NCBI GenBank assembly: GCA_947588755.1
Contig: CANPZB010000011.1
Location: 1-44,144 of the forward strand
Direction of reading: 5' to 3'
Source of the DNA: Candidatus Gastranaerophilales bacterium
GTDB taxonomy: Bacteria > Cyanobacteriota > Vampirovibrionia > Gastranaerophilales > Gastranaerophilaceae
DNA: 44,144 bases
Below, in pieces: positions 26,574 to 34,345 of the stretch. Below the pieces are notes generated by a model, which did no database searches, was not told where the DNA came from, and was given only the letters and a program-made list of their open reading frames with translations. A program made the position numbers and the translations under genes. Every line of letters starts with the position of its first letter. Positions within the stretch are counted from its first letter, which is position 1.

Positions 26574-26880
26574 TGTAGAAAACTTTGTATTTTTTTGTAG
26601 AAAACTCATGAGTTTTCTACAATGAATTTTTAATTTATTTTGTTTTATACTTTTTCTTATATTTTTTCTTCATACTTTTTTACAGCAAAAATACGGTCAT
26701 AGTAAGCTTTTCAAGTATTTTTCTACAAATAATTCGATGTTATTATTACTGTTATTTTTTTATTTATTATTATTTATTATTTTGTATATAATAAATAAAC
26801 TTAAAGAGACACGTCACATAGTAAATTTTTGTGATAATTTTATTATTTTTTGTTAAAAAATACTTTTTTAAATGTATAAT
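26574..26880. other. Candidate chromosomal replication origin (oriC) upstream of dnaN
   Basis: Four identical 9-mers TTTTCTACA lie in this gene-free stretch: minus strand at 26574-26582 and 26596-26604, plus strand at 26613-26621 and 26719-26727. They differ by one base from the TTTTCCACA DnaA box I recall from cyanobacteria. The second and third form a perfect 28-bp palindrome (26595-26622). About 20 bp after the last box begins an almost pure A/T tract (26737-26800), a plausible unwinding element, and dnaN follows at 26906. Origins beside dnaN rather than dnaA are known in cyanobacteria. No dnaA gene is in view; strand skew could not be computed. Confidence 0.6.
26595..26622. repeat. Perfect 28-bp palindrome carrying two DnaA-box-like sites
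   Basis: The left half TTGTAGAAAACTCA is the exact reverse complement of the right half. It is built from two inverted TTTTCTACA 9-mers joined by a 10-bp centre. It would bind two protein monomers in opposite orientation, and as DNA could extrude as a cruciform. Confidence 0.85.
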
Positions 26881-28392: not shown

Positions 28393-29205
28393 ATGGAAAA
28401 CGAAATTTTTTACGGAAAAAGAGCAGGGCATGAAAATGATGACATGTTTGTTCAGGGTGACATGGAGGTGTCTCGTCATTGTGAGCGAATGCGAAGCACT
28501 CCAGCCAATTATCTTGCATGCTGTGCGTTCACCCTTGCCGAAGTCTTAATCACCCTCGGAATAATCGGTGTTGTTGCGGCTTTGACATTACCTAATTTGG
28601 TGGCAAAATATCAGAAAAAAGCCGTAGTAACACAGTTAAAAAAAAGCTATACAGTAATGCAGCAGGCATTAAAGCTTTCTCAAATTGATAACGGCGACAT
28701 TGACAACTGGGATACAAATTTAGACGGTCACAATTTTTTTATAAAATATATTTCGCCTTATGTAAAAACAATAAAAGAATACAGTACAAGTGAACTTAAA
28801 AGTGCCGCTCCCAGAAAATTATTAAATGGCGGTACATATTCAGGTACAACCTACAATAACGAAACCGCTTCTCATTTTATTTTAGCCGACGGCTCAATGG
28901 TAACAGTTAATTTACATAACGCAGCAGAAAAAGGGTTATGGGTAGGTTTTGACGTAAACGGTTTGACAAAACCAAATCAAATAGGGAAAGATACTTTTTT
29001 GTTTTATTTTTCTTCTAAATACGGTCTTGTGGCATTAGGTGACAGAGTACCCGCAGGGTGGACATATAATACAAATACAGATGATTTAAGAAAGGAACTT
29101 TTAACGGGTGGCGGTAATAGTTGTTCATTAAGCGGATTGGGTTATTGGTGCAGTGCGTTGATTGTAACTGACGGCTGGGAAATTAGGGATGATTACCCAT
29201 GGTAG
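28393..29205 (+). CDS. Type IV pilin-like protein with repeat-derived leader, cassette 2
   Basis: The 270-residue protein has the prepilin helix FTLAEVLITLGIIGVVAALT starting at residue 46, with Glu at mature position 5 as required for assembly. The residue before the cleavage site is Ala, not Gly. The mature head contains DVNGLTKPNQIGKDTFLFYF, matching its paralogues, but its C-terminus (WCSALIVTDGWEIRDDYPW) differs from their MDYLHC ending. The leader is long (45 residues); residues about 20-43 are encoded by a piece of the dispersed repeat. A shorter leader from the internal ATG at codon 33 is possible. GGAGG lies 12 nt before the annotated ATG, rather far. Confidence 0.88.
   Translation: MENEIFYGKRAGHENDDMFVQGDMEVSRHCERMRSTPANYLACCAFTLAEVLITLGIIGVVAALTLPNLVAKYQKKAVVTQLKKSYTVMQQALKLSQIDNGDIDNWDTNLDGHNFFIKYISPYVKTIKEYSTSELKSAAPRKLLNGGTYSGTTYNNETASHFILADGSMVTVNLHNAAEKGLWVGFDVNGLTKPNQIGKDTFLFYFSSKYGLVALGDRVPAGWTYNTNTDDLRKELLTGGGNSCSLSGLGYWCSALIVTDGWEIRDDYPW
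28450..28523 (-). repeat. Dispersed-repeat fragment inside a pilin leader
   Basis: These 74 bp match the reverse complement of 33913-33985, including the TTCAGG-TGACATGGAG junction, the CGTCATTG core and the AATTATCTTGCA end, with scattered substitutions. The segment is in frame and encodes most of the pilin leader, ending just before the prepilin helix codons. Confidence 0.8.
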
Positions 29206-32450: not shown

Positions 32451-32666
32451 CTATAAATTGAAATCCAGAAGCTCGCATGTTCTCAGGTTAAACGCATTAG
32501 CTATCTGGATTAAATTTGTATATCTGATGTCGGTTTTACCTGTTTCAATGTTGCTTAATCCGTGAACGGATAAGTTTGCAAGCTCCGCAAGTTCTTCCTG
32601 ACTAAGTTTTCGTTTTACTCTTTCAAATTTAATCTTTTGCCCTAATTTGATTAAATCAATATTCAT
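32451..32666 (-). CDS. XRE-family HTH regulator, cassette 3
   Basis: The 71-residue Cro/CI-type protein has VKRKLSQEELAELANLSVHG followed by LSNIETGKTDIRYTNLIQIA. It is divergent from the pilin at 32811 with a 144-bp gap. TAGAAT (32673-32678) lies exactly 6 nt before its ATG. A 24-bp perfect palindrome at 32696-32719 covers the pilin -10 box and is the natural binding site for a dimer of this protein. Sequence shows the parts; repression is inferred. Confidence 0.92.
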   Translation of the reverse strand: MNIDLIKLGQKIKFERVKRKLSQEELAELANLSVHGLSNIETGKTDIRYTNLIQIANAFNLRTCELLDFNL

Positions 32667-32682
32667 ATAAATATTCTATCAG

Positions 32683-32719
32683 TTGACATGGGTAATTAAA
32701 TTCATTATAATGAATTTAA
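32683..32719 (+). promoter_or_regulatory. Pilin promoter of cassette 3 with a 24-bp palindrome over the -10 box
   Basis: TTGACA (32683-32688), a 17-bp spacer and TATAAT (32706-32711) are perfect consensus. The -10 box lies in the centre of a perfect palindrome, half-site TTAAATTCATTA, at 32696-32719. A dimer bound there would block the pilin promoter and sits within 20 bp of the regulator's own -10 box (32673-32678). Confidence 0.85.
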
Positions 32720-32810
32720 AATAAATATAGTGAAATATTCTGTAATATAAAGCAAAGAATTGAAAAAAAATGAATAACAAATAAAAAAACAATAAAAGAA
32801 AGGAAAAAAA

Positions 32811-33752
32811 ATGAAAGAAGAAATTAAAAAATTAACAAATTTGGAAAAGACCGTGAGACCCGACAAGGCTAAGATCCTGAAACCGTCTTGGATTTGCTCC
32901 ACGCTCACAGAGTTTCGCATTTGTGGCTTTGCCACAGTATGCTCAATCTGTTCGCTATCCGGACTCGTTACCACTCCGTCCGTCCGCAAATCCGCAGTTC
33001 AGGATGACAGACACGCATTCACTTTGGCAGAGGTCTTAATCACCCTCGGAATAATCGGGGTTGTTGCGGCGATGACCATGCCGTCATTAATTCAAAAATA
33101 TCAGGAAAAAGAAACGGTTACAAAGTTGAAAAAAGCTAACAGTGTACTTAATCAGGCTTATCAGCGGGCAATGGCTGAATACGGTCCTGCATCAGACTGG
33201 TTCTCTGTTGCTTCATCCGCTTCAAAGGACGAAAACGGAGAATGGCCGGCAGATGTAATGGATAATTCAAAATTGCTTTGGGAAAGACTTTCTAAATATA
33301 TGAAAACAGTATCGGTTTGTTACGGTGCGGATAAAAGTTGTGAAAGACCTGACATAGCACTTTTACACGAACAAAGTAAAGGAAATACTACTGTTTCAGA
33401 TGCAGCAATAGTTAAATTAGCAGATGGTACCAGTTTTTATGGCGGTTGGATAGGTAATCCTAATTGCACACCCAATACACATTGTGGTGACTTTCAAGTA
33501 GACATAAACGGGGATAAAAAGCCTAATATTCGCGGAAAAGATGTATTTAATTTTTTAATAACACCGAAGGGAATTTTTCCTAACGGTACACAAACACTGA
33601 GCAGTACACAATTCCCACAATATTGCAGCCGAAAATCAACTATTGATAGAAATGGTTATGCTTGTGGGGCTTGGGTAATTTACAACGAAAACATGGATTA
33701 CCTGCATTGTGATGATTTAAGCTGGAATGGTAAACATAAGTGTTCTGATTAA
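32811..33752 (+). CDS. Type IV pilin-like protein with an unusually long leader, cassette 3
   Basis: The 313-residue protein has the prepilin helix FTLAEVLITLGIIGVVAAMT starting at residue 70, again with Ala before the cleavage site. The head contains VDINGDKKPNIRGKDVFNFL and ends CGAWVIYNENMDYLHC, then LSWNGKHKCSD. The leader is 69 residues; normal leaders have about 5-25. DNA for residues about 12-67 is shared in part with the intergenic repeats (KTVRPDKAKILK and SVRKSAVQDD segments). No ATG, GTG or TTG lies in frame between those repeats and the helix. AAAGGA lies 7 nt before the ATG, a solid start. Confidence 0.9.
   Translation: MKEEIKKLTNLEKTVRPDKAKILKPSWICSTLTEFRICGFATVCSICSLSGLVTTPSVRKSAVQDDRHAFTLAEVLITLGIIGVVAAMTMPSLIQKYQEKETVTKLKKANSVLNQAYQRAMAEYGPASDWFSVASSASKDENGEWPADVMDNSKLLWERLSKYMKTVSVCYGADKSCERPDIALLHEQSKGNTTVSDAAIVKLADGTSFYGGWIGNPNCTPNTHCGDFQVDINGDKKPNIRGKDVFNFLITPKGIFPNGTQTLSSTQFPQYCSRKSTIDRNGYACGAWVIYNENMDYLHCDDLSWNGKHKCSD
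32838..33008 (+). repeat. Repeat-derived insertion encoding most of the cassette 3 pilin leader
   Basis: The left part (AAAAGACCGTGAGACCCGA and AAGATCCTGAAAC) matches 33991-34030 on the minus strand and 10370-10415 in the cassette 1 remnant. The right part (CCGTCCGTCCGCAAATCCGC then TTCAGGATGACA) matches about 34255-34293 and 565-595. A hairpin GTGGC-TTT-GCCAC lies between. The whole remains in frame with the pilin. Confidence 0.7.
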
Positions 33753-33963: not shown

Positions 33964-34345
33964 TCTCCATGTCATCCTGAACTTGTTTCAGGATCTTACC
34001 ATTTTCGCGTCTCACTGTCTTTTCCAAAATTGTTGTGTTTTTAATTTTTTTCTTTTTTTTTATTTATTAGTGTTTATTACTTTTTTATTCGTCATTCAAA
34101 ATACATCATTGTCACCCTGAATTCATTTCAGGGTCTTGTTATTCACCATAATTGGGGATAATGACTTTGGTTTAGTATCTATTCTATTAAAAGACTTGAT
34201 AAGGCTAAGATCCTGAAACAAGTTCAGGATGACATGGGGCGGATTTAGTCTTTCCACTCCGTCCGTCCACAAATCCGCAAATTCAGGATGACATGATATT
34301 GTTCAGGATGACATGTGTAGTTTCACTTTTTCACTTTTCACCTTA
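33964..34345. repeat. Hairpin-rich repeat island behind the cassette 3 pilin
   Basis: Three hairpins of one family lie here: ATCCTGAA/TTCAGGAT at 33974-33994 and 34210-34230, and ACCCTGAA/TTCAGGGT at 34114-34134, all with 5-nt loops. Further TTCAGGATGACATG units occur near 34284 and 34305. The island ends with TTTCACTTTTTCACTTTTCA (about 34323-34342), the inverse of the GTGAAAAG-type units that open copy B. No gene is present up to the terminator at 34411. Confidence 0.8.

Follow-up and report, generated by a model that had tools for sequence, protein, structure and literature searches.

What does a perfect 24-bp palindrome do in the gap between a gene for a small XRE-family regulator and a prepilin-like gene, and which protein would recognize it? 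To address this question, we analyzed the 44,144-nucleotide stretch of Gastranaerophilales DNA that carries the locus (hereafter, the window) together with related loci in other genomes. The dyad lies between a 71-aa XRE gene on the minus strand and a prepilin-like gene on the plus strand, which diverge from a gap of 144 bp (83% AT; Table 1). A preliminary description had reported a perfect palindrome at this position, and direct reading and a repeat search confirmed it: the arms at 32696-32707 and 32708-32719 (TTAAATTCATTA and TAATGAATTTAA) are 100% complementary, with no loop between them. The 24-bp sequence has a single occurrence in the 1.83-Mb genome, allowing up to 3 mismatches. The window contains only one longer gapless dyad, at 26595-26622; this one is also perfect (TTGTAGAAAACTCATGAGTTTTCTACAA) and is found upstream of a beta-clamp-like gene.

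The dyad had also been described as centered on the -10 box of a consensus promoter. The promoter is indeed a consensus one, as TTGACA and TATAAT, separated by 17 bp, match at 12 of 12 positions, but TATAAT lies 1 bp away from the true center of the dyad (32707.5), so the centering holds only to within 1 bp. Because the dyad is a palindrome, TATAAT is present on the minus strand as well. In addition, the consensus promoter that the dyad covers drives the prepilin gene (predicted transcription start, ~32718), and the XRE gene has a putative promoter of its own nearer to its ATG.

Table 1. Coordinates of the features of the XRE-prepilin gap and its flanking genes within the window.
Feature	Coordinates	Strand	Basis
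71-aa XRE/HTH_3 regulator with recognition helix VHGLSNIE (residues 34-41)	32451..32666	-	ORF; Pfam HTH_3 4e-13; AlphaFold model
Putative -10 of XRE promoter (TAGAAT), 6 nt before ATG	32673..32678	-	Kept in orthologues
-35 box (TTGACA) of prepilin promoter	32683..32688	+	Sequence; TGTCAA on XRE strand in most orthologues
24-bp dyad, XRE-proximal putative operator site; core about 32700-32715 (ATTCATTATAATGAAT)	32696..32719	.	Repeat search, shuffles, orthologues
-10 box (TATAAT) of prepilin promoter, within dyad	32706..32711	+	Sequence; spacer 17
Degenerate second putative operator site (TTTCACTATATTTATT on - strand), offset exactly 20 bp	32720..32735	.	Orthologues have ATTCATTATAATTATT here
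Prepilin-like gene, putative regulated partner	32811..33752	+	ORF; Pfam N_methyl 2.4e-5; NCBIfam TIGR02532

The 71-aa protein belongs to the XRE/HTH_3 family, scoring 49.6 bits against HTH_3 (PF01381; curated cut-off 23). It has no sensor domain and ends after the HTH domain. An AlphaFold model of the protein (pLDDT 95.7) contains helices at residues 23-29 and 34-41 and puts the recognition helix at the latter. The solved folds nearest to this model are those of the controller (C) proteins C.BclI and C.AhdI (for C.AhdI, TM 0.90, rmsd 0.5 Å), and the XRE matches C proteins in sequence as well (E 1.4e-6). A search of IMG/VR found no close relatives, arguing against recent acquisition from a phage.

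To determine whether the dyad is kept where the genes are, we compared the orthologous gaps of 11 other species-level Gastranaerophilales genomes, whose XRE orthologues are 77-87% identical to that of the window. These gaps align readily. The preliminary description had asked if the dyad is lost from gaps that retain the genes; on the contrary, the core and the -35/-10 geometry were kept in the 11 orthologous gaps. The core, WTTCATTATAATGAAW, occupies the same location in these gaps and is clearly decayed in only one, L035, where the half of the dyad nearer the XRE gene is gone. Conservation covers a core of 14-16 bp but not the outermost bases of the 24. Most of these gaps also keep TGTCAA, the pilin -35 box as seen from the XRE side, and TAnAAT is found 6-9 nt before the XRE ATG. 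The XRE-proximal copy of the site is the symmetric one, with single changes on one side in four orthologues (ATTCAGTATAATGAAT in three and ATTCATTATACTGAAT in one). The exact 16-bp core occurs once in the genome of the window and once or not at all in each of the other genomes, always at the XRE gap, and a search for a regulon of extra sites yielded none above the reversed-pattern control.

The half-site of the dyad varies with the recognition helix of the XRE. With at most 1 mismatch, TTCAYT-N2-ARTGAA (TTCAYTNNARTGAA) was found upstream of 14 of 14 XRE genes encoding an SVHG helix, compared to 1 of 95 others; as the pattern was written after inspecting the sequences, this evidence is strong but not blind, and partial independence applies only to the cases from other phyla. 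Two such cases are among the 14, HipB-type regulators from a member of the Planctomycetota (L076) and of the PVC group (L102), which are ~50% identical over the matched part, contain the same helix (SVHGLSNIE) and have TTCACT-N2-AGTG(A/c)A upstream. By eye, the ORF list places HipA-type genes downstream of L076. Other helices are accompanied by other sites: XREs with the helix SIRTISDIE have a different dyad in the same location (perfect over up to 36 bp in L036 and L037), those with SRRTISEIE have GAACATTATAATGTTC-like sites, and those with SRHSISLIE have AACATNATGTT-like sites. None of the plasmid-borne HipB-like relatives inspected contains SVHGLSN, and in these proteins other helices likewise pair with other sites, such as AGTGTATTATAATGCACT in Flammeovirga.

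The comparison also revised the view of the dyad as the operator of the XRE. While the dyad itself is supported as a site, it is one of two: the orthologues contain two copies of ATTCATTATAATKAWT exactly 20 bp apart, the second of which is weaker, and in the window this second copy has decayed. Cooperative tandem binding may thus be weakened at this locus. Of 53 unrelated cassettes, 20.5 had their best self-match at a tandem offset of 20-21 bp, compared to 4.3 in shuffles.

The XRE side of the gap has a recurrent geometry of its own. Among 56 related XRE genes, 29 have TANNAT exactly 6 nt from the ATG and only 5 have an SD-like motif. Conservation of TANNAT so close to the XRE start codon, with 6 nt as the commonest distance, suggests that the XRE message is leaderless. 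The putative XRE promoter combines a good -10 with a poor -35. On the pilin side, the -10 matches best at a distance of exactly 17 bp from the -35, where 25 of 36 related gaps agree with the -10 consensus at five or six of its six positions; both this spacing and an XRE -10 at 6 nt recur across clades. As the center of the dyad is 41.5 bp from the XRE ATG, the putative operator would be centered at -41.5 if transcription of the XRE gene has the leaderless start predicted here, while also lying over the pilin -10.

The gene on the other side of the dyad encodes a protein with a prepilin cleavage/methylation motif (PF07963, 24.1 bits against a threshold of 21.2; TIGR02532, 21.3 against 16.3). 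The N-methylation motif FTLAEVLITLGIIGVVAA is at about residue 69, so the leader is unusually long. A near-palindromic 28-bp repeat (AAGATCCTGAAACAAGTTCAGGATGACA) is dispersed over ~128 places in the genome, among them 32871-32883, 33970-33997 and 34207-34234 of the window. Related sequence is read in frame within prepilin leaders (KILKQVQDD), giving leaders of up to 135 aa that resemble repeat mosaics. Where a partner prepilin was recognized in orthologous cassettes, it was only 27-33% identical to that of the window. When the body of the window prepilin was searched in 7 relatives, the best match was elsewhere, not beside the orthologous XRE gene, and the der GTPase gene is not an orthologous neighbor in the other genomes. 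The closest paralogue in the same genome (84%, contig C25) has neither an XRE gene nor this dyad in the upstream stretch up to the contig edge. In L035 and L070, the conserved XRE gene and operator are opposite a divergent ORF without a recognized prepilin motif, so some partners are not evidently prepilins. In L071 (around 3001), an XRE orthologue lacks its start and operator, and a prepilin body in inverted orientation directly adjoins its 5' end, an arrangement that is either a rearrangement or a misassembly. As the XRE gene and the dyad stay linked while the pilin and the neighbors change, the regulator-operator pair is the conserved unit, and the pilin an exchangeable or fast-diverging partner.

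We considered whether the symmetry could have arisen without any regulator, simply because two divergent -10 boxes overlap or because the DNA is AT-rich. TATAAT is on both strands of a very AT-rich gap, and dyad-like matches are common in such DNA. However, gapless arms of 12 bp were obtained in only 1 of 20,000 dinucleotide shuffles of the 144-bp gap (and a dyad of this length in 2 of 200 shuffles of the whole window), the TTCA/TGAA arms lie outside any -10 box and are kept in orthologues, and another conserved -10 lies beside the XRE ATG, so we regard this explanation as very improbable. Even less credence can be given to a role for the dyad as an RNA or terminator hairpin in the 5' region of the pilin gene. 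Although the dyad folds as RNA (-6.5 kcal/mol, z -3.6), the orthologues keep its sequence as well as its symmetry. We rejected this reading, as the surrounding region contains no terminator-like site and no Rfam match, and the predicted start at ~32718 leaves most of the dyad out of the transcript of the prepilin promoter.

The remaining alternative is that the dyad serves not the neighboring XRE but a different HTH_3 regulator, of which the genome encodes roughly 40, or a global regulator. Small XRE proteins can act in trans, and 41 HTH_3 genes of this genome score above the curated cut-off. This is nevertheless improbable, given that the dyad co-varies with the recognition helix of the adjacent XRE across clades and phyla, that the motif is private to the XRE gap in each genome, and that XRE and dyad remain together when the genes around them do not.

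Comparison of loci thus supports the earlier proposal that the dyad is an operator for the neighboring XRE, since it is kept with the XRE gene and its half-site follows the recognition helix. We consider it highly likely that the dyad serves as the main operator for the 71-aa XRE encoded beside it, which, with a second dimer 20 bp away, would repress the prepilin promoter. In the mechanism we propose, an XRE dimer on the dyad would repress this promoter by covering both its -10 box and its start site, aided by a further dimer bound at a distance of 20 bp along the same helical face. XRE binding, cooperativity, the leaderless start and repression of the pilin gene are all inferred, the last of these firmly. 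Bound at -41.5 of its predicted leaderless start, the XRE would probably also control its own synthesis, like lambda CI at OR2/PRM or controller proteins, because the operator has this position and the promoter a good -10 but poor -35. Positive autoregulation of the XRE gene is speculative, and an operator at -41.5 would be compatible with it.

The locus is one of many in this genome, which contains 103 prepilin-like genes with a nearly identical N-terminus (FTLAEVLITLGIIGVVAA; examples in the window at 28393, 32811 and 42934). Many of these genes are located at contig ends, suggesting that assemblies probably break in them. We found that 22 of the HTH_3 genes are divergent to a prepilin gene within 900 bp, compared to 1.0 expected by chance. 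Strong dyads of their own were present in cassettes C60, C23, C58, C4 and C11_32k of this genome, and each cassette examined closely had a different putative operator. The dyads of C9, C24, C12, C13 and C44 were no better than those of shuffles, so not every cassette visibly follows this plan. No description of a divergent XRE-prepilin series was present in the open-access literature searched, which excludes most subscription journals. One could imagine that gut Gastranaerophilales contain dozens of XRE switches that resemble C proteins, are insulated from one another and have a private operator and an exchangeable pilin-like gene each, which would allow a bistable, combinatorial choice of surface pilins without DNA inversion, the regulator-operator pair being a portable module re-partnered with pilins; we offer this only tentatively and consider it rather unlikely as a whole. 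The cassettes suggest how a bacterium with ~100 pilin-like genes might express them selectively. Furthermore, a series of cassettes with recognizable private dyads, a common promoter geometry, and swapped or diverged pilins makes an XRE recognition code testable from sequence.

Among known systems, the predicted arrangement resembles a miniature lambda OR or controller-protein switch dedicated to one pilin. The best match in sequence and fold is to C.AhdI, C.BclI and C.Esp1396I, which, like the XRE, are single HTH domains of 71-79 aa. C proteins also have a pair of dyad sites separated by about two turns of the helix, as do the XRE orthologues (20 bp, with the second site degenerate in the window). 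C.Esp1396I binds as two dimers to a 35-bp OL+OR operator, each centered on TATA (PMC4041747), and the axis of the window dyad is likewise in a central TATA. A leaderless regulator transcript is reported to be common for C proteins (PMC4824078), and for the XRE transcript a leaderless start is predicted from the TANNAT 6 nt before the ATG and the lack of an SD. Unlike C proteins, the XRE has no adjacent restriction or methyltransferase gene, its neighbors being the der GTPase gene and the divergent prepilin gene, its half-site is TTCATTA and not GACT, and both of its sites are upstream of the XRE -10.

The divergent, overlapping promoters are shared with lambda CI/Cro at OR (PRM/PR) and with lambdoid PaaR2/YdaS. 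So is a layout in which operators overlap the -10 of the promoter that is repressed and one site falls near -42 of the promoter for the regulator. The regulator messages of lambda cI and paaR2 are known to be leaderless (PMC8630535). Unlike lambda CI, the XRE has no C-terminal dimerization/cleavage domain, and in contrast to both lambda and PaaR2, its locus has no opposing Cro-like gene, two sites instead of three or four, and no recognizable prophage. HipB antitoxins (Y4mF/HipBST type) belong to the same HTH family, and L076 and L102 combine the same helix with a TTCACT-type putative operator, but the XRE locus, flanked by der and the prepilin gene, does not contain a HipA, HipS or HipT toxin. 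SinR (3zkc) has the same DNA-binding domain fold and controls surface or matrix genes; unlike SinR, the XRE has no C-terminal oligomerization domain, and a SinI partner was not found. An operator as such is of a known kind, and its dedication to pilins in a many-copy arrangement is the unusual part.
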